Positions 20,897-55,926 of a DNA stretch of 64,000 nt are shown piece after piece (the stretch's first letter is position 1; every line of letters starts with the position of its first letter). The position numbers and the translations under genes are program-made. This stretch comes from Mesostigma viride (Eukaryota > Streptophyta > Mesostigmatophyceae > Mesostigmatales > Mesostigmataceae). The stretch covers positions 129,001 through 193,000 of the forward strand of contig RPFO01000390.1 of assembly GCA_009746045.1 (NCBI GenBank), in the 5' to 3' direction. The notes under the pieces are model-generated. The model did not search any database. It had not been told where the DNA came from and was given only the letters and a program-made list of their open reading frames with translations.

Positions 20897-23800
20897 ATGT
20901 TCAGCACTTTGGGGCAAGCGCTCAAGCAGAGGGTAGAATATAGAGTGGGCCAGGTAGGCGCCCTGGTCACTGCGGCGCAGGCAGCAAGGCAACAAGCTCG
21001 GCAGGTCGTGCAGGTAAAAATTTTTAAATGCCGATTTTCGGCAAGCTGACCACCTCGCCCAAGTTGTTATGCAAGCTTGGATGCGCCATGTAGCTATACT
21101 TGAGTGCCGGTTACGGCTGCTGCATGTTTCATCTGATAATCCTTTAGGCATGTCGACTAATTTCAGGACATTGTAGCCGTTAACAGCTGTGCACACGCAG
21201 AGTGTGCAGGATGGTTGGAGGCAGCCGGGTGAAACCAGCTCCCTATGTCGCCTGCTTACTAATGAGATGTTAGAGGCGAGACGGGAAGGAGTCGTTCAAG
21301 CTACAGCCTGACGCGCCTATTGAACTATGCCCACGGCGTGCTCGGCCTCTGCAGGGAGTTGCTACTGGCATCCAGGAGGTAGACCTGGTGTACGTCACCG
21401 AGAGCATCATCGTCGTCGGCTTTCCCCCATGGGCCAAAGCCGTGGGGCTGTTCGGGCGGGGAGAGGTAAACAAAGGGAAAATCTTGATTGCAGTGCCGGA
21501 ACAGTACTAAACCCGTAATGCCGGCACTTTTCTGGTGCATTCACGAGGTCCATCTGTGGGACATGTGGGCGCCAGTCCTTGGCATGTGTGAGTACGCATC
21601 AGTTAGTTAGGAAGTAAATCTGAAATCCCCCCCCCCCCCCCCCCCGGCGCTTTTCTCGCCTTCCCTTCGTCTCCCTCGCCCCTTTCCCCCTGCTCCCCAC
21701 CCGTGCCCCGCTCGCCGTCCCCGTTTTCCTTTCTGCCCGGACCCGCCCATACTCTGCCACGCTGGCCGCCTGCCCGTCCGCTAGCCCCGCGTTGCCTGTT
21801 TGACATTGAGGCTAAGGCCGAGCTCACTCTGTCGTGCGACCCTATAAGCAAAGTTCTCTTTTTCCTGGCACCTCGAGAGTCGTGCGGCTGGTAATGGATG
21901 GGCATGGGGGGCATAGATTTGTGTGGGCGTTGGGGGGGTGGGGTTGGTACCTTTTTTTTATCAGCTCCCACCGCATGTGTTGCACGCGGGTTGTATTCAT
22001 GCACCCATTGCACCCCTTGTCAACATCTGTGCATCCCTTGACAACACTACCCCTTGGTTAAAGGACCCCTCGACAAATTACTCCTTGATGAAACTGCCCC
22101 TCTTGTTAGCAGTCTGGCTAGTGTGTGGCGCGTGACTGTAGTAAACGAGAGCATAAACGGAGCATATGACTTTTCATTTCGGCGCGGCTCACCGATGCCC
22201 TCAGTGAAAATTTTGGTACGAAGGATTCAAACACAGGACCTCTCGCATGATTTCAGCGGATGTGCACACCCTTTGCAAACGGTTCTCGCGCAGTGCATCG
22301 CAGGTGACACGGCGGTAAAAAATCCGTGATCGGCCTTGGCGTTTAGTGCCATGAAGCGGCCTGTTTAGGGTTCAGGATTTAGTGTCGGGGCGGCTGCATC
22401 AGCGAGCCAGCTGTGTGGCGCGGCTGTGTCAGCAGCGGTGCCAGGGCGGTAGCTGGACAAGTGCCTGACCTTGTCCTGGGGGTTCGTTGCTGGGTCAGTT
22501 GTCGCTCGCGGTGGCGAGTGTCACTGCCTGCGCTGTTAGTGCCAAAAGTGGTTGCAGTTCAGAGATCCTAGTCCCCGTGGCACGTCCCATGGCATGATGG
22601 CGGCGTATGTCCCATGCGGCGTATGCGTCATGACATGATGGCGGCGTCGTGTTGACCTGAAGGTGCCCTGTTTGGTGTGGTGGATGTCTTGCTAGCTTTG
22701 GTAGTGCCCGCTCTGGTGCGGCAATTCCCTTGTGGGATGCGGCATCCATCGGGTGAATGGGTCATTGACTTGTTAGATCTTCTTCTTTGGCGTTGGTTCT
22801 TTGGCGTTTTATTGGTTTTGCGTTGCGGTTGTTCCCGTGCTGGCGACTGCGCTTCCCTTTTTGGCGCGCACCAGACTCCCTATCAGATTCCCATGGAGCG
22901 CGCGATCGAGTTCTTGGAGGAGCACCACCGGGTAGGCTGCCCTTGTTAGTGGCTTACACTCGCAGTGCGTGTCGCGCCTAGGATCTACTCTACTGGCGTG
23001 TAGAGATTGGGTGTGTGCACCGGTATCTGGAGAAGCAGCGCCGGGTAAAGTTTCCACAAGGCCAGCGGCTGCTGCTTCCCAAGTGGCTGGACTCCGATTT
23101 CCTGTTTTGTCGTTCACAGATAGGGTTTTCTTCACTAGCGCGCGTCACCCATCATGTTTCCGTTAGCCGCTCGTATGGGGCACCTTGGTTACTGGCGATA
23201 AGCTATTACTTACTGGCGATATTTCTGGCCTCCGCTGGTTGTCTCATATATAGTCACTGGCTATATGTCATTAACAACTGATTTTCAAGCCTCATCCGTT
23301 CTGTGCACAAATATATACTCTACATAGTTTATCTACATAGTTTATCTACATAGTTTATCTACATACTTCATCTACATAGTTTATCTACATAGTTTATCTA
23401 CATAGTTTATCTACATAGTTTATCTACATACTTTATCTACATAGTTTATCTACATAGTTTATCTACATAGTTTATCTACATAGTTTATCTACATAGTTTA
23501 TATACATAGTTTATATAGCCGTAAGCTGTCACGCACTGACCCTCACGCTTCATCCGTTCCGCGCACACGCGGCTGCGGTGTCGGATGCTAGGTCTCGTGA
23601 GCATGTGGTACTCGAGCTACTCATCGTGCGTGTGGTCACAAATAGAAGTGAGGCAATTTCTTTTTTCCTTATTATAGAAGGGTTGGGCTTGATTCTGGGA
23701 TAACCGTCGCTCCATGTAGTCCGTGGGTCCCCCGCTGGCGCGCGTGGTTGGATTGTGGTTGATTGACTCTTGGCTCTCACAGTGTAAACCTCGCCGTATA

Positions 23801-26800
23801 CTCTCAGCATTCACCTGAGCCTATTTGCTCTCACCTAGCTCCTGGCGTGCCGTGTAAAGCGTGCAAATACATGCGCCACTGCTCACAGGTTGGGTAGCGT
23901 AGCTCAGTAACTGCGATATGCATGTGGAGTGAAGTGAACACGGTTTGTTGACATGAATGTTTGTGTGAATTGGGTGCGATAGGCAGGTGCCAGTCAGTAG
24001 ATGCTTCTGGCATCCGTAGTCTCTGCTTGGCATCCCAGCCCCCCGTATTCACCATCACCGCACACTAGCTAACGACCCCCGTTTTGTGCTGTGTGAACCC
24101 CCAACTGCATGCTGCCTGCCACTGCGCGGTTCAGGGCTGCTACAAGTTCTACAACTTGTGCAAGGAACGGGTGTACAATCCGGAGGACTTTGATGGCTTG
24201 GTGCGTGACTAGGCCTGGAGGTGTATGGCGTAGGGTTACGGGACAGATGTGGTTTGGGTGATGTTGGACTTTTGGGATTTGGGCTTTTGGGTTAGAGTGA
24301 GCAAGCCCGGGGACTTTGGTGGCTTCCTGTGCAGTTTTGTGTAGGGCGTTTAATTTGTGTAAGGTCCAGGGATACAGGGTGCGAGTTGCTGGGTGAGGAG
24401 GTACGTGTGGGGTTTACGCAGTTGAGGGTAGCAGGTGTAGGGAATAGGGGTAGTGGGTAGGAGGAATTAGGTAGGGGTTCAGGGGAAATATCATTGTTAT
24501 GCTTTGCAATCTGGTGGATTTGTTTGGTTTGCTTGGCAGCTATTTAGGGTCTAGGTTTGTCCGGCAGCTATCTAGCGTCTAGGTTTGTCCGGCAGCTATT
24601 GAGGGTCTAGGTTAGCTATATATGGTCTAGGCTTCTCCGGCAGCTGCTCATTCCCACTTCTTACTCCGGTGCACACACACGCACACACATATCATCCCCA
24701 CCCACCTTTCGCTCCATCCTCGTTTCTTCCAAATCCGCCACGTGGCAGGTGACCCACGTCCCGCTGGAGGAGGGCCACCCGCCCCCGCTGTCGGCGCTGC
24801 TGATGATGTGCCAGGGCGCCAAGGTGTGGCTGCGGGGGGGCATCTCCAACATCATCGCGGTGCACTGCGGGGGCGACCGCTCGCGCACCACCATGGTCGT
24901 CGCCTGCATGCTGCTGTACCTGGAGGTGAGTGTGCTGCCCTGCCAAGTAAAGGGGAGGAGAAGGGTAGGAAGGAGGGCGGGAAGAGGGGGAGAAGGGGAG
25001 AAAGAAGATGCTGCTCTACCTCTAGGAGAGTGTGCCGGCTGAGGGGGGAAAGACGACAGAAAAACGGGGAAAGGCAGGCCACTTGCAACTTTTAGGAGGA
25101 AGATGAGGAGAATGGGAAATGCAGGGGGGCCTCTATCTTGAGGTTATCACACCACCCTTTTGAAAAGAAATTTGTGCGTAGTGATGCCTTGTGTTGGCAA
25201 AGAAATCGGTGCATAGTGGCAGTGTTGGCATGGCTGGTGGCATTGTCTGCTCTCATGTGGCGCAAGTGGCAGCATTAGCGGCCACATTAGTGTGCAAGTG
25301 GCAAGAAATAATGAAGTAAGCCATGCTCCCGTAACCATGTCGCGAACATGGCAAGTAGCCAGCTGGTTCATTTACTCCAGCAAGCCATGTGGCGCTGACA
25401 CGGCGCTCCATCTGTACTGTTTATGCCGGCCATGTTGCCTGAAGTACATAATCTCAAGTGACCCTTTCGGCTAATGTGGTGCGTTGTCCCATCCTTTTCA
25501 GCGTTCCTTCCACCATCCTTGTCCCCATCCCTATCCCTGTCCTCCCCCCATCCCCCACCCCCCATCCCCCACCCCCCATCCCCCACCCCCCTCACCCACA
25601 GTTCTTCCGGCGTGCGGATGAGGCGCTGGCGCACATGTGCGCGACCACGACCGGCTTCTGCACCAAGCCGGATGGCAAGGCCGGCTACATCACGCCCAGC
25701 AGCCAGGTGTGTGGCAAGGCTGGTCACATCACGCCCAGCAGCCAGGTGTGTGGCAAGGCCGGTCACATCACGCCCAGCAGCCAGGTGTGTGGCAAGGCTG
25801 GTCACATCACGCCCAGCAGCCAGGTGTGTGGCAAGGCCGGTCACATCACGCCCAGCAGCCAGGTGTGTGGCAAGGCTGGTCACATCACGCCCAGCAGCCA
25901 GGTGTGTGGCAAGGCCGGTCACATCACGCCCAGCAGCCAGGTGTGTGGCAAGGCCGGTCACATCACGCCCAGCAGCCAGGTGTGTGGCAAGGCCGGTCAC
26001 ATCACGCCCAGCAGCCAGGTGTGTGGCAAGGCCGGTCACATCACGCCCAGCAGCCAGGTGTGTGGCAAGGCCGGTCACATCACGCCCAGCAGCCAGGTGT
26101 GTGGCAAGGCTGGTCACATCACGCCCAGCAGCCAGGTGTGTGGCAAGGCTGGTCACATCACGCCCAGCAGCCAGGTGTGTGGCAAGGCCGGCTACATCAC
26201 GCCCAGCAGCCAGGTGGGTGGCAAGGCTGGTCACATCACGCCCAGCAGCCAGGTGTGTGGCAAGGCTGGTCACATCACGCCCAGCAGCCAGGTGTGTGGC
26301 AAGGCCGGTCACATCACGCCCAGCAGCCAGGTGTGTGGCAAGGCTGGTCACATCACGCCCAGCAGCCATGTGTGTGGCAAGGCTGGTCACATCACGCCCA
26401 GCAGCCAGGTGTGTGGCAAGGCTGGTCACATCACGCCCAGCAGCCATGTGTGTGGTCGTATCGGCCAACGTCACACAAGGGGTGGCAGGAGGGTATTGTA
26501 AACACGGTCATGTTTATGTCTGAGAGGTGCGGGGCATCAGTTCCCACACTTACACATTTATTGAGCCACGATTTCTGTATCCTCCAAAGGGGTCTCGTGG
26601 TATACTCCTATTTGCAGCAGAGGTATGTGCATGCTGCTCCACGCTCCTTTGTCCATCTGTGCTGGCGATGTTGGCATGCACGTTTCCGGGTGCCCTGTCC
26701 TCCATATTTTGAATCGTATCCCCCAGGCCCTCACTCCGATTGGCCGTTGAGTCGCACCTCAGGCTGTGTGGAAGCCGGTGGTGATTGTTGTGGAAAGCGT

Positions 26801-29800
26801 TATTTTTAGCAACGTCTGGTCTGCACCCACCACTCAACACTGACGTCGATTTGGATGTGCGGCTGCCTTGATAGCTAGTTGTTGCCTCTTTCGTACCAAG
26901 GCCCCTGTGATCATGAGTATTGCAACACAGTGCGTGTTTGAGAGAAAAGCTGCGGATATCCAAGACTCAGACGGAGGTCGATGAATCTTGTGTCGCCTCC
27001 TTGTATTGCTGGCAGCTGCGTGGGATGTTGCGCTTGTCACAGGTGCAGTCGTATATGTGATGCACTTCTATTGCTGGCCATGAAACGTGCTTTACTTGTC
27101 GCCATGTTGTCACCATATCGTCGCCATATTGTCGCCACATCGTCGCCATACTGTCGTCCTATTTTTGCCATATATTGGTTGTCTCCTTGATATTTTTGCC
27201 ATATAGCCGCCTTGCTGCTGCCGTCTGGTTGTTCCATGAAGGGAATGGAGATATTTTGTCTTCCTGCCCGGCACTCAGCTGACCTGATTCTCTGCTATCC
27301 CCCCCCCCCCCCGCCCCGCCCCCCCTTTTGCTATTGATGCCCGCTCCTGTGCCCCCTTGCCCCCTTGTGAAAATGTTGTACCACCCTCGCTCCATCTTCA
27401 GCGCTTTGTGGAGTACTTTGAACAAATGCTGGCGGCAATAGCGCTGGCAGATCCTGAGAAGGGGCCACCCCCACCCCCCGGACGTGAGTACTCACCGCGT
27501 TCCCCACCCCATTCATAGGCCATCCCATGAATACAGCCATGCTCCCAGGGCCCCACCCACCCAACGCCGACAATCATTTTTGGCTCTCATGCCCTACCAG
27601 CGGTGGCCAGTCCGCTTCATTTTCTTAGAGATTATTTTTTCTAGCTTTTTCTTGCACTCATCTGCCCATGCGTTGGTGCCTGTCCATTGCGTGCTCCCTC
27701 CATGCCAGCCAGGGAGGGCCCCCCTTCCCCAGCGTTTTGCGGCACGTGGTCTGGTCGAGCGGTGCTGCATCTGATCATGCCTGCTTCCGCGCCTGTCTGC
27801 CCCTCCGCTCTTGCCCCTGTTCCTCCCCCCTCGCCCCCACCAGCTGCTTCATCCGCGGCGTGCGCTTCTTCAACTGTCCAAAGTACCTGCGGCCGCACAT
27901 CACAGTGCGGAACCACGAGGGTGGGTGTGGCCCGTGTGCTGCCAGCGTTCATTCTAGTGTGTGGTGGCTTGCAGTAGTGTACTGCGGCCGCACATCACCA
28001 TCAGGAGGCACGCGGGCGAGCGCAACTCGTGACCGGTACTAGCCGTGGACATGTACACTCATTCACGTCGTAAGTTGGTTTTCGAGGGGTCAACCCAAGT
28101 AAAGGCGTGAATGACTGTAATGTCGCGCGTTCACTGTAATGTCACGCGTTCACTGTACTATCAGTGAACATGCGGCTGCCATCTCTCAAGTCCAACCAGC
28201 CGCATGTTCACCAAAGCCCGACGGATGGTCAAGGCCGCTCCCGTCACGCATCGTTTCCGGACTCCAATCCGTGGCGGCTACCAGCACCGAGCGTGAGAGG
28301 AAGACGTGGGGGACTTCTCCAACTGTCTGTGAAGAATGTCCAGTGCGGCCTCTCTCTGCTAGTCCCCCCCTGCACGCACCAGCACACACACATACATCTC
28401 GGCGCTGCGTTCCCTTCTTTCCTGAGCTGCCGTATCCTACCATGAGTTACCCAGTGTGTCGGGTCGTGCTGTCATGATACTGGCGATCAATGGAGGGAGG
28501 AACGCTGATGCGTGCCAGGGCAGCCAGTACATGTCAATACCTGATGCATCGTGCATACAGCGATCAGTGTCCGACAGTAACCAGGGTTACGCGGTCGTCG
28601 GCGGGTCTCTTCCAAGTTTCTCGGCTCATAAGTAATTTGTAATGTTTTCATAAGTTATTTGTAGTCGTCGTCGGTTATCTTGTAAGTTGTACCTGTACGT
28701 CACCGGCCACTCCATTGTCAATCAAGACTTAATGGAGAATCATGTTAAATTAAGGCTCAATTGTTGATCAAGACTACCTTACCGATAAAAAATTGAAAAG
28801 CCGGTGACCTTGTGCATTCCCGTGTGCCTCAGTTTGCCAAGCCGTGCACCGATGCGCCTCAGCTGTGACTGTCTGTAAGCATTTTTTAGTGCCTTACTTC
28901 CGTTACTGCTCTGCTTGTACTTGCTCCTGTGCTGGGACTCGCAGGCATCCTATTTACAACCAAGGACAACCCTCACTGCGGGGTAAGCAAGCCTTGGCTG
29001 TTGCTGGGTTGATACACTGGGTTGATACACTCCGGTGCATGGTATCCATGTTCCAGGGGGAATTTAATCTGCTGCGCAGACCCTAGACTGACTAGCCAGC
29101 CCATCTGTGGCGATGTTATGCAGTTTAATTGTAACACCAGCAATGTCCTTGCAATTTCCCTGCCTACACTTCCCAAACCAGCTGGATCTATGCTTCCTTT
29201 CAATGTCCTACATCTCCTTCCCGTCCCCTCCAGTGGGGGCCCTGGCCTTGGTCCGCTCCCTTCCCCACCCTGATCTCGCTCCCCTGCTCACATTTCTACC
29301 TTTGCAGTCTCCCCACCTCCCTCATGGTACTGAATATTTTTGGATGTAGTCATTTCTCGTTTTTTTTTTTTAGATGCTGACTTCTTTACTTTGCCTGTCC
29401 TGTCCCTGACCCTGTCCCCATCCCTTTCTCCTCCCCACCCCACCAGCCCGACGGCCCCGGCGTGTGGCTGTACGGCATCTCCCTGCGCGGCCTCCCTGTG
29501 CTGAAGTTTGTGCCGGCGCGGCTCGGGGAGAACTGGCAGGTTACGGGCGAGTTCTGCATCCAGTTCCACGACCGGTGGGGCGACTTCTACTGGTGCGTAT
29601 ATGGCCGCAGTGTAGATAGTCAAGGTCGATAGTGTCCTAATCAATACTGTGGGTGTTCCACGACTTGTGGGGCGACTTCTACAGGTGGGTCACTGGCAGA
29701 GTTGATCCCCATGCCTGCAGTGTCCCGTTCTACCCAGTATTTTTTTCCGGAGCCAGATATTTATTTTGTTTATTTCAATTTTTTTCCCTACGGGCATCAA

Positions 29801-32800
29801 ATGGTTGGTAGGAAGACAATATTCTGTTGTCATTATACAGTTCTGTTATGTACAGTCATGATTCTTCATGGTCCGTGTGCTTGTCGGTCTCTCGGATGGA
29901 CCACAACCGTTGCTTGTGTTTACCACTGTTTCTGTGCTCCTCTGTTGCTTCTGGATGTCGGCTTGCTGACTCCCATCGCACATACGTTTGCTCCCCTCGG
30001 TTGCTCCCCAATACAATCCCCCCCCCTCTCCCACCCATCACCCACCCCCGTGATCCTCCGCCCGCCTCCCTTTCACCCAACACAGCTGGCTGCACACGGC
30101 CTACTGCGACGACAAGATGGTCATGCACGTCCAGCAGTTTGACCACGGGCCCAAGGTGGGTGTGCGCGCCCACTTGGTGGACACACACATGGCTGTCAAA
30201 AGTCGACGCTCTCTGCGCCCGCTCCGTCATGCATGCCAAGTCCACCGCCCAGTCGTCTGCGCCCCTTCTGGCTCACTTTCGCAATGTCGAATCTCTAACA
30301 TCCAAATTTTATATTTCTCTATGCTCCTTGACTGGGACATGCCACCATCTCGCCCCCCATGGCATCAACTGTGAAAATGGACTAAAATTGATTGTGTCTC
30401 ATTCCCTCCGTCTCCCCCACAACCCACTAATTCTTTCCCCTCTCCTTCCACCTCCCACCCTCTCCCTCCCCACCCTCTCCCTCCCACCTTCTCCCTCCCA
30501 CCCTCTCCCTCCCAACCTCTCCCTCGACCCCCCTCCCTCCCACCCTCTCCCTCCCACCATCTCCCTCCCACCCTCTCCCTCGAACCCTCCCACCCTGAGC
30601 CGACCACCAGCCAACCACCAACCAACCACTTTACTGACCCTGCCCTATTCTGTAGCATAAAGATCTCGCCTCAGTTCCAAACCACCATCCAACCTGGCTC
30701 CCTGCTCTGGTTCCCTGTCCTCCCCTCCTCCCCCCCGCCAGCGCCTCTCCCACTGCCCCAACTTCCTCGCAGAGATCCTCGTGTGCAGCGTCGGTAACGA
30801 GCCTCCTAAGCTGCAGGTCCTCCGCGCAAAGTCCGCCGAGGCCATCGCCGCCCAGGCCGCGGAGACTGCCGCTAAGGCTGCCGCCGCACAAGCGGCCGCG
30901 GAAGCCTCCGCCACTGCCGCCTCTGCGGAGAAAGCAGCGGCGGCGAGTGGGGAGGGTAGCACCGGCGGAGGGGGGGAGGCAGCGCGAATGAGCCCATTGA
31001 CAGACATCGTGAGCTATTTCCGAGGCCAGGTGCCCGCGAGCGTGCAGGCGCGGCTGGCATCAGGAACCAGTGCGGTGGCGGCCACCCGCGGGAGCGGGGG
31101 CACGACCAACAGCCCCCTGGAAAGCAGCAGGGACAGGGACGGGTCCAAGGGGAAATCCTCGGATGCTAGCAGTAGTGGTGGGGGTGGTGGCGTGGCGGGA
31201 TTGTCGTCGGTGCTGGCGTCTGCGCAGGACATTCTGGCCAAGGGGCTGGGCGGCTTACCCGAGTTCAGTGTCCAAACCATGGAGGAGATGATCGCGGACG
31301 ACGCGCTGTACTCGCTGGGGGGGGACTCGGACGAGGACGATGGGGAGGAGCCGTTCGCAGGGGCGGTGGATGAGAGCCTGCTGGAGCCTCCGCCGGATAT
31401 AATCCCGGCTGCCGTCACGCCGCCGTCGACGGCCGCAGTGGCCGCCCAGCCGTCCTCTTCTGTTTCCTCTTCAAAGGATGTCGATGTGGGGAAAGTGAAG
31501 GTTATTGATGCGGGGAATAAAGGTGGCGGCAAGGGGAGTAAAGAAGCTGCAGGGGCTGAGGACGCAAAGCAGGCACCCGCGGCTCCCGCATCTGCGGCGG
31601 TAGCCAAGGCACCCACGGAACAGACAAAGGAGGACAGCAAAGGGGACGCTGCGCGAAGCGACAAGGCCACGAGCAAAAGTGCAAAGGTGGGCATCGGGAA
31701 GAGCGAAGGTGGCGAGAGCGACGGCGCGGAAAAGGAACAAGTGGGGGCAAATGCGGCATCGGAGAATGGCAAGGTAGTCGCAGGCAAGGGCAAGGGTGCA
31801 CCCTCGTCCCAGGCCCCGCAGGAAGCCCAGGAGGCGCCCGTGAGAGACACGGGAGGTGCCGCAGCCCAGTCCGTGTCAGAGGAAAGAAGCGGCGGCCGTC
31901 AAGGGGAGGCGGAGGATGGGGCAGCAGTCAGCGCGGCTGCCGTTGCGGAGGAGGTCGTGCTTCCTGTGTCGGACGCCAGGGACGAGGAAGCGGCGGCAGG
32001 GGCCGCGTCGGCTGCTGTGTCAGCACGGGAGGGGCAAGGCGAGGTCATGGGGGCTGGGGATGTGCTGGAGGTGGCGGTGGACCATTCTGGCAGCAAGCCG
32101 CCACCATCAGAAGATGCAGAAGGGTTTGCGGAAGTTCCCGCAGGAAGCGCAGGGGCATTGGCCACCAAGGAGGAAGGTGGTGTGGGGGAGGTTGGGGGCG
32201 AGGCTGCAGGTGGGGCTACCGAGGTAGATGGGACAGCAGCGGGAAGCAATGATGTGGATAACGGGGATGCCGACAAGAAAAAAGATGCGGCCTCGGCAGC
32301 GGGGGTTGCGGAGGGGGTTCCACCGCCGGACTCCAATCCAATGGCGACCGAACAAGGGGCAGCTGATGAGGATGTCGCCACATCATCACAAGCGGAGAGT
32401 GATCCTGTGGCGGCGGAGAGTGATGGTGCTGCGGTGGCGGGGAATGGTTCTGACACCGCCGCAACGGGTACTGTAGATGCCGTGTCAGCGCCCAGTGGCG
32501 CGGCGGGGCAGGCACCAGAAGGCCGGCCATCCGAGGCGGATGTTGAACTGGCGGTAGCAAAGGAGGGCGTGGATGAGTCTGCGTCGTGCAACGGGGCAGG
32601 TGAGGCGAGGGAAGCTGCCGAGGTATCGAACCAGGAGGGAGACAAGGACGTGGGCGAGGAAGCGCAGGCATCTGTCAGCGAACAAGAACCAGAAAAGGGT
32701 GATGTGGTGGCCGAGGACAGCGCCGGGGTGGCCACTCCCAGCACGGATGACGTTATCGCCGCTGCAGAGGCTGCAAGCGAACCGCATGTGGAGGCAACAT

Positions 32801-33075
32801 CTCCCTCGGAGGGCGAGAGCTCGGCGGCCGGCACTGGTTCACAAACAGCAGCGGCCGCCGTTAGTGGTGGAAAGACGCTGGGCTCAGTGCCCGTGACCGG
32901 GGGTAACCTGCTCGCGAATTTCAACGTCGACGATATCAGCCATGAGGCGCTCCAGCGTGTGATGGGCGGTGGGGACGACGAGCCGATCCCGTCGGGCATT
33001 CTTGGGGGTGACCCAATGGGGGTTGAGAACGATGCCACATTCACGCTTGACTCCGACGACGACGATGACTTGTGA
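20897..33075 (+). CDS. PTEN/auxilin/tensin-type phosphatase-like protein with long acidic tail, 12 exons
   Basis: Exons: 20897-21013, 21355-21465, 22875-22931, 24135-24200, 24749-24925, 25602-25706, 27402-27487, 27844-27920, 28945-28982, 29447-29592, 30086-30155, 30742-33075 (3384 nt, 1127 residues). All phases agree. N-terminus: an amphipathic-looking MFSTLGQALKQRVEYRVGQ. Phosphatase domain: EVDLVYVTESIIVVGFP, CYKFYNLCKERVYNPEDF, the P-loop HCGGDRSRTT (CX5R kept) and the TI-loop GYITPSSQ with RFVEYFEQML. C2 domain: CFIRGVRFFNCPKYL, EFCIQFH and HCPNFLAEILV. Then about 750 residues rich in Ala, Glu and Gly, ending in DSDDDDDL. PTEN dephosphorylates PI(3,4,5)P3; auxilin/tensin relatives bind lipid. 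Activity here is inferred only. No J domain is seen. Exon 7 uses the weaker donor GTACTC; GTGAGT 4 bp upstream breaks the frame. Exon 6 is followed by 19 in-frame copies of its own end. The first exon is the least certain. Confidence 0.85.
23023..23050 (+). repeat. Donor echo of PTEN-like exon 3
   Basis: GTATCTGGAGAAGCAGCGCC then GGGTAAAG repeats the exon 3 end at 22907-22934 (GTTCTTGGAGGAGCACCACC then GGGTAGGC) at about 20 of 28 positions and keeps the GT. It would encode YLEKQRR beside the exon's FLEEHHR. Confidence 0.55.
23316..23517. repeat. 13-bp tandem repeat TCTACATAGTTTA
   Basis: About 15 copies in intron 3 of the PTEN-like gene, with a few CATACT variants. Confidence 0.9.
24307..24333 (+). 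repeat. Donor echo of PTEN-like exon 4
   Basis: CCGGGGACTTTGGTGGCTTC repeats CCGGAGGACTTTGATGGCTT at the exon 4 end (24180-24199), about 120 bp downstream. The donor GT itself is not conserved. Confidence 0.5.
24534..24650. repeat. 28-bp tandem repeat, four copies
   Basis: Units of GGCAGCTATTTAGGGTCTAG followed by GTTTGTCC, in intron 4 of the PTEN-like gene. The last copy has diverged. Confidence 0.85.
25008..25036 (+). repeat. Donor echo of PTEN-like exon 5
   Basis: ATGCTGCTCTACCTCTAGGA then GAGTGTGCC repeats ATGCTGCTGTACCTGGAGGT then GAGTGTGCT at 24908-24936, exactly 100 bp downstream. The donor GT has become GA. Confidence 0.7.
25668..26447 (+). repeat. 39-bp minisatellite of 20 units, seeded by the exon 6 end and its splice donor
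   Basis: The first unit (25668-25706) is the last 13 codons of exon 6. Nineteen near-identical 39-bp units follow to 26447. Each codes V-C-G-K-A-G-H-I-T-P-S-S-Q in the same frame and ends in CAG|GTGTGT, except units 17 and 19, which end in CAT, and one unit followed by GTGGGT. The frame stays open to a stop at 26501. Variation is almost confined to GCT/GCC in the KAG codon, two GYI units, and the two CAT units. Confidence 0.97.
27977..28020 (+). repeat. Donor echo of PTEN-like exon 8
   Basis: TACTGCGGCCGCACATCACC and the following bases repeat the exon 8 end at 27884-27925 (TACCTGCGGCCGCACATCAC...), about 94 bp downstream. Both read as LRPHIT followed by a basic segment; the echo has lost the donor GT. 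Confidence 0.7.
29655..29690 (+). repeat. Donor echo of PTEN-like exon 10
   Basis: GTTCCACGACTTGTGGGGCG then ACTTCTACAGGTGGGT repeats GTTCCACGACCGGTGGGGCG then ACTTCTACTGGTGCGT at 29563-29598. Offset 92 bp. The donor GT is kept. Confidence 0.85.
30430..30600. repeat. (CCCTCTCCCTCC)n pyrimidine minisatellite before an acceptor
   Basis: Repeats of CCCACCCTCTCCCTC fill the intron 150-320 bp before the acceptor of the last PTEN-like exon. Confidence 0.85.
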
Positions 33076-35774: not shown

Positions 35775-36951
35775 GCGACAAGCTGCCTTGGCATCCACGG
35801 GACAAGCTGCCTCGGCATCCACGGGGCAAGCTGCCTCGGCATCCACGGGACAAGCTGCCTCGGCGTCCACGGGACAAGCTGCCTCGGCGTCCACGGGACA
35901 AGCTGCCTCGGCAGCCACGGGACAAGCTGCCTTGGCATCCACGGGACAAGCTGCCTTGGCATCCACGGGACAAGCTGCCTTGGCATCCACGGGACAAGCT
36001 GCCTTGGCATCCACGGGACAAGCTGCCTTGGCATCCACGGGGCAAGCTGCCTCGGCATCCACGGGACAAGCTGCCTCGGCGTCAACGGGACAAGCTGCCT
36101 CGACGTCCACGGGACAAGCTGCCTCGGCATCCACGGGACAAGCTGCCTTGGCATCCACGGGACAAGCTGCCTTGGCATCCACGGGACAAGCTGCCTTGGC
36201 ATCCACGGGACAAGCTGCCTTGGCATCCACGGGACAAGCTGCCTTGGCATCCACGGGACAAGCTGCCTCGGCATCTACGGAACAAGCTGCCTCGGCATCC
36301 ACGGGACAAGCTGCCTTGGCATCCACGGGACAAGCTGCCTTGGCATCCACGGGACAAGCTGCCTTGGCATCCACGGGACAAGCTGCCTCGGCATCCACGG
36401 GACAAGCTGCCTTGGCATCCACGGGACGAGCTGCCTTGGCATCCACGGGACAAGCTGCCTCGGCATCCACGGGACAAGCTGCCTCGGCATCCACGGGACA
36501 AGCTGCCTCGGCATCCACGGGACAAGCTGCCTCGGCATCCACGGGACAAGCTGCCTCGGCATCCACGGGACAAGCTACCTTGGCATCCACGGGACAAGCT
36601 GCCTCGGCATCCACGGGACAAGCTGCCTTGGCATCCACGGGACAAGCTGCCTCGGCATCCACGGGACAAGCTGCCTTGGCATCCACGGGACAAGCTGCCT
36701 TGGCATCCACGGGACAAGCTGCCTTGGCATCCACGGGACAAGCTGCCTTGGCGTCCACGGGACAAGCTGCCTTGGCGCCCACGGGACAAGCTGCCTCGGC
36801 GTCCACGGGACAAGCTGCCTCGGCATCCACGGGACAAGCTGCCTTGGCGTCCACGGGACAAGCTGCCTCGGCATCCACGGGACAAGCTGCCTTGGCATCC
36901 ACGGGACAAGCTGCCTTGGCATCCACGGGACAAGCTGCCTTGGCATCCACG
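35775..36951. repeat. 24-bp tandem array, 49 copies
   Basis: Unit GACAAGCTGCCTTGGCATCC then ACGG, with C/T and G/A variants at a few positions, repeated about 49 times over 1.18 kb. Because 24 is a multiple of three, long ORFs arise in several frames: ASTGQAAL/S on plus (to a stop at 37152), and DAKAACPV, PRQLVPWM and GSLSRGCQ on minus. No frame is favoured by the variant positions as far as can be seen by eye. Whether any is translated is unknown. Confidence 0.95.
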
Positions 36952-37230
36952 GTCTTTCATCCAACTATCCAACTTGTACGTCCAACGAGTCTCTGCCGGT
37001 TGGTCCGGCGGCTTGGTCGAAATACATTTGCCCACCCACCAGGGACACCTGGGACACAGAGTGTTTCCCCACTTTACCGATGCGATCAATACGTTAACAG
37101 TGTCACAGCTAGCTTTTATTCCGGCCTAGCCGATCAGTCACTCACCCGCTGAAACCTGCCGTGCGCTGCACATTCCGACTTTCCCTCTGCCTGTTTCGCG
37201 GCCAAAAATACCTACCTGCCTATTCCACGT
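36952..37230. other. Gap between the 24-bp array and the glutaredoxin gene
   Basis: No supported exon. The C-terminal exon expected for the minus-strand glutaredoxin gene (a GG.DDL type motif) was searched for here by eye and not found. Confidence 0.35.

Positions 37231-41553: not shown

Positions 41554-55926
<14,373 letters not shown>

Follow-up and report, generated by a model that had tools for sequence, protein, structure and literature searches.

In the window, a stretch of 64,000 nucleotides of Mesostigma viride DNA, a PTEN2-like gene has the final 13 codons of its exon 6 repeated together with their splice donor as a 39-bp minisatellite of 20 units, and judging from the DNA it is quite probable that the first donor is the one mainly used, with the remaining units removed as intron and exon 6 and the protein left unchanged. 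Local duplications that span splice donors are numerous on this contig, and the array belongs among them. The coordinates of the array, of its host gene and of the comparable copies are collected in Table 1.

Table 1. Features of the PTEN2-like gene, its 39-bp array and the copies of exon tails and donors in this and other genes (window coordinates, except for the last line)
Feature	Coordinates	Strand	Remarks
PTEN2-like gene, hand-built 12-exon model	20897-33075	+	open from ATG to TGA; junction 7/8 on a weak donor
Exon 3 tail + donor copy, intron 3, PTEN2-like gene	23028-23047	+	score 25, weakest of the set
Exon 4 tail copy, intron 4, PTEN2-like gene	24302-24325	+	donor lost
Exon 5 tail + donor copy, intron 5, PTEN2-like gene	25008-25035	+	reads TAG|GA
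14-bp pyrimidine minisatellite beside exon 6 acceptor	25544-25599	+	
Exon 6 (105 bp)	25602-25706	+	ends CAG|GTGTGT
Array unit 1 (final 13 codons of exon 6)	25668-25706	+	junction 25706|25707 = first, predicted main donor
19 extra 39-bp units	25707-26447	+	CAG|GT behind 17/19
TAA closing the exon-6 frame when no donor is used	26499-26501	+	
Exon 7	27402-27487	+	phase 0 start
Exon 8 tail copy, intron 8, PTEN2-like gene	27982-28016	+	donor decayed to GC
Exon 10 tail + donor copy, intron 10, PTEN2-like gene	29655-29690	+	
Exon 3 tail + donor copy, neighbouring EXS gene	44504-44550	+	
Second donor-straddling array, EXS exon 4	45234-45458	+	84-bp unit, 2.7 copies; donor 45279|45280
Exon 5 tail + donor copy, EXS gene	46529-46564	+	
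Third donor-straddling array, ion-channel gene	contig C358, 257351-257480 (outside the window)		32 bp x 3.9; frame-breaking

When cut at CAG|, the array divides into 20 units of 39 bp (25668-26447), and TRF reported it as one array of period 39 with 20.1 copies, 97% matches and 0% indels (25673-26455); that the repeat itself is more than chance is beyond doubt. The array is bordered by GATGGC on the left and GTGTGGTC on the right, with TGG at both outer borders. The CAG|GT junction is intact in 18 of the 20 units, the exceptions being the ends of units 18 (26369) and 20 (26447), which read CAT|GT. The donors of units 1-13, 15-17 and 19 share nine identical bases and score 6.9, compared with a median of 5.9 for 43 training donors; unit 14, which is followed by GTGGGT, scores 7.8 and the two CAT units 3.9, so that the last donor, adjoining the unique part of the intron, is degraded (3.9 vs. 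6.9). The exon-6 frame stays open across the whole array as far as the TAA, and any unit could be joined in frame to 27402, as exon 7 starts in phase 0 in the hand-built model. In all these respects (20 units made of the last exon 6 codons plus donor, 17 of the 19 extra units with CAG|GT, a frame open through all copies, and in-frame joining to exon 7) our results agree with the first-pass annotation. RNA structures hiding the donors were sought in three pieces and nothing clear emerged (z 0.02, -0.31, and -1.73). Exon 6 has minisatellites on both sides, the pyrimidine tract before its acceptor being itself the 14-bp repeat.

The open frame was rejected as evidence of coding, as all three forward frames of the 39-bp unit are open and an open frame therefore shows nothing. 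A period divisible by three was likewise rejected as evidence, being ordinary among the arrays here: it was found in 10 of the 36 arrays retained from 56 TRF rows in the window and in 86 of 188 TRF rows with a period of at least 10 on the whole contig, where rows overlap. A genome-wide enrichment of donor-bearing arrays was also rejected, as trios of CAGGTGNGT at about the array spacing numbered 777 vs. 1144 for the reversed pattern.

The host gene encodes both a PTEN-like phosphatase domain and a C2 domain. The first 387 residues of the gene model matched Pfam PTEN2_C2 above the cut-off (9e-26), and residues 47-221 matched PTEN chain 1d5r_A (7.8e-21). The signature CX5R is kept in exon 5 as HCGGDRSRT. 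The lysines of the PTEN P-loop (HCKAGKGR), which have a role in lipid specificity, are missing from the corresponding HCGGDRSR, and the gene is therefore termed PTEN-like. In the window segment 24749-24925, HCGGDRSRT corresponds to HCKAGKGRT of PTEN and PLEEGHPP to PFEDHNPP, so both P-loop lysines and the aspartate are replaced. The exon 6/7 junction separates the two arginines in the stretch aligned with PTEN PSQRRYVYYY, a position that we take as the C-terminal border of the TI loop (R172/R173 in PTEN numbering), and the earlier placing of the insertion point at that loop thus holds. Farther downstream (27402-27487 and 27844), the strong donor of exon 7 (C|GTGAGT) would lead into exon 8 out of frame, and the in-frame junction needs the weak GA|GTACTC; a C-run lies just before this weak donor, and an assembly indel error there is possible. 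Searching the 440 Mb assembly (2243 contigs) with the DNA of exon 6 and the first units gave nine matches, all within the array, and the protein search gave 11 matches, all of them to the gene's own exons; the gene therefore seems to be single-copy, with neither a second allele nor a close paralogue in the assembly. None of the 7998 candidate protein relatives scored from a large database reached 1e-3, and a literature search on PTEN in algae found nothing to the point.

To look for copies of exon ends, a query of 40 exonic and 10 intronic bases was taken across each donor and compared with the remainder of the same intron. In the first test, 8 of the 20 donors of the PTEN2-like and EXS genes scored at least 28, while the best control scores were 23 in the reversed intron, 21 in the upstream intron and 24 for acceptors compared with the downstream intron; acceptors compared with the upstream intron reached a best score of 30, once. 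The extended sample covered contig C358 (258,784 bp, including the window), on which exons were called by a script and nine non-transposon gene models were retained, all with Pfam support; several of the exon calls are ab initio. The contig's other genes include ones for proteins with Raf1_N and BSD2_CRD, which points, for an intron-bearing genome, to a photosynthetic eukaryote. At p ≤ 0.005, copies were found for 22 of 63 donors and for 6 of 63 acceptors compared with their upstream intron, and for one of 63 in each of the two reciprocal comparisons (donor tails with the upstream intron, acceptor heads with the downstream intron). A stricter test limited the targets to 400 bases and left out low-complexity queries. 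Exon tail and donor then recurred within the donor's own intron in 18 of 52 cases, whereas the figure was 2 of 52 for acceptors (Fisher 9.5e-5) and 14 of 176 for random intron positions (7/89 + 7/87; p 8.4e-6). Of the tiled intron positions, 93 of 934 scored at least 28. The three best gene models (PTEN, EXS, and RPI) gave 11/27 donors vs. 2/27 acceptors (p 0.009).

Local copies were just as frequent at intergenic positions as at donors in the stricter test (20 of 62), which indicates that local duplication is common here and not special to donors. In addition, exons are frozen while introns drift, which makes old copies easier to see and inflates the enrichment of donors over intron positions. 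The contrast between donors and acceptors is free of this bias, but the two kinds of site are called with equal uncertainty. This contrast is that of a single contig: the one gene sampled on another contig, a tubulin-family gene on C1546, had copies at 0/3 donors and 0/2 acceptors, and the chains on 60 kb of contig C2 look retroelement-like and were hence left out of the test.

The fate of the copies was followed in a set of 21 donors with one copy each: the 22 significant ones less two of low complexity (20 donors), plus one at p 0.01. The identity of the tails was 86%, GT was kept in 15 of the 21 copies where 15.6 were expected from identity alone, and four of the 21 offsets were multiples of three (three of the 21 being gap-dependent), from which we conclude that the copies decay as if neutral. 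Offsets were mainly 50 to 180 bases. In several genes of contig C358, a distance of about 90 to 115 bases from the intron start is frequent among the exon-tail copies; since the spacing of local repeats within introns covers a similar range, this may simply be the common size of duplications here. That the single copies arose purely by tandem duplication is doubtful, as similarity ends near the donor in several pairs despite a long spacer, and spaced duplication is a possible source.

Donor-straddling arrays recur in two other genes. TRF arrays contain 3 of the 55 modelled donors (PTEN2-like exon 6, EXS exon 4, and the ion-channel gene) and one of 55 acceptors; arrays make up 10.9% of intron bases, and donors thus lie in them at about or below the rate of any intron position (p 0.28). 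The ion-channel array has steps of 32, 32, and 36 (read by eye). In the EXS (XPR1/PHO1-like) array, GAG|GTAGGG is kept in the extra copies, several of whose codons differ from those of the exon copy. The gene finder strung these copies as exons into the EXS protein, an error that should serve as a warning to annotators. The window also holds a 24-bp array of 49 copies (35777-36952) with long open frames on both strands (ORFs of 405 and 454 aa).

We propose that the array would have started where exon 6 ends, with a local duplication of 33 exonic and 6 intronic bases that was probably set at the TGG microhomology of the outer borders, and that it would have grown to a 20-unit minisatellite by unequal exchange or slippage. 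Faced with near-equal donors, the spliceosome would take mainly the first ('first come, first served') and treat the extra units as intron, in which case the 39-bp array would presumably be neutral. A human reporter library carrying two consensus donors was spliced predominantly at the first, and order was decisive for donors and not for acceptors (PMC6783452); if the same rule applies here, donor 1 would make most of the mRNA and the array would be intron. A duplication spanning a donor leaves the protein unchanged only with use of the upstream donor, and one spanning an acceptor only with use of the downstream acceptor; many donor copies and few acceptor copies are therefore expected where the first of several donors usually prevails and acceptors follow no such rule. 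Further support comes from the neutral decay of the copies, from arrays that are no commoner at donors than in introns generally, from the frame-breaking 32-bp array, from the degraded last donor and from a gene that is seemingly single-copy and otherwise open. The donors of the array match donor 1 in strength, so some splicing may plausibly leak into units 2 to 4; a low level of use of the one to three donors that follow donor 1, each contributing 13 residues, would be a likely by-product, comparable to that in human IFI6. Against use of the first donor speak the donor strengths, which give it no preference (nine bases shared, and unit 14 higher), the frequency of intergenic copies, and the result for the tubulin-family gene. 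Older in vitro work by Reed and Maniatis (1986) and Eperon (1993), which is said to favour the donor nearest the acceptor, also counts against it.

The first-pass annotation had offered as one option a ladder of alternative donors tuning the rim of the active site, that is, the use of several units to produce functional isoforms with n x 13 residues beside it. Frame, phase, the proportion of intact junctions and donor scores above the training median would fit such a ladder, as does the use of two downstream repeat units in IFI6, but the retention of frame and donors needs no selection when all forward frames are open and the units are 97% alike, and the other donor copies on the contig decay neutrally. 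We consider a ladder unlikely, including the function at the active site, given the offsets and GT retention of the comparable duplications and the existence of another donor array with 32-bp units. The other option of that annotation, an array ignored by the spliceosome, is the part that gains support. An in vitro rule by which, of several identical donors, the one closest to the acceptor wins would instead make unit 19, the last with CAG|GT before the acceptor, the preferred donor and add up to 18 x 13 residues. This reading is highly improbable, as it places a 234-residue insert in a phosphatase fold, donors 18 and 20 are degraded, and the large reporter library (PMC6783452) followed a first-donor rule.

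Under the Rogers model of intron gain, each unit would double as donor and acceptor (AG|GT) and introns of n x 39 bp would be spliced within the array. CAGGT is indeed present at every intact junction, and fission yeast has 24-bp AGGT arrays with introns over two or four units (PMC4974935), but the stretch before AG is not rich in pyrimidines in each unit and a proper acceptor is present at 27402, which makes splicing within the array very unlikely. That the copy number is an assembly artefact, or the gene a pseudogene, appears extremely improbable: the array is known from one assembly and junction 7/8 lies on a weak donor beside a C-run, but the unit variants are spread irregularly along the array, unlike a copied collapse, and the 12 exons join open.

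It is conceivable, though we hold it as somewhat short of an even chance, that in this genome short-range donor-spanning duplications are kept as if neutral while acceptor-spanning ones are purged, that its introns are thus a fossil record of the 5'-most donor winning in this lineage, and that the 20-unit array is an extreme case. Should the asymmetry be genome-wide, plain DNA would report a first-donor-wins rule of splicing over evolutionary time, and exon ends would be shown to seed minisatellites and intron growth. The array itself offers about 18 near-equal donors lined up naturally ahead of a single acceptor, and hence a ready-made test of how equal donors compete by position alone. Among open-licence papers, nothing in print was found on an asymmetry between donor and acceptor duplications, which is weak evidence of novelty.

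The arrangement of the array is already known in kind. The minisatellite of human IFI6 reportedly consists of 26 units of 12 bp. The unit is thus of 39 bp here and of 12 there, in a different gene and a different kingdom. According to PMC4526556, the IFI6 minisatellite supplies donors and two downstream repeat units are used, giving three mRNAs, and the title of Turri 1995, cited therein, describes this minisatellite as supplying splice donors; the earlier statement that no such case had been described is thereby contradicted. Both arrays begin in an exon end and continue into the intron, both have donor-like units, and in both the extra donors add whole codons; the extra donors of IFI6 are used in mRNA, whereas those of the PTEN2-like array are known from DNA. 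Tandem duplication of segments containing AGGT, with intron gain (Rogers 1989), is known for fission yeast SPOG_01682 and SOCG_00815 and for ATP2A1 (PMC4974935); there too each tandem unit holds AG|GT, but the array described here adjoins a pre-existing intron. As in the reporter study (PMC6783452), a series of equal donors competes for a single acceptor, with two donors in a human reporter there and 20 natural donors here.
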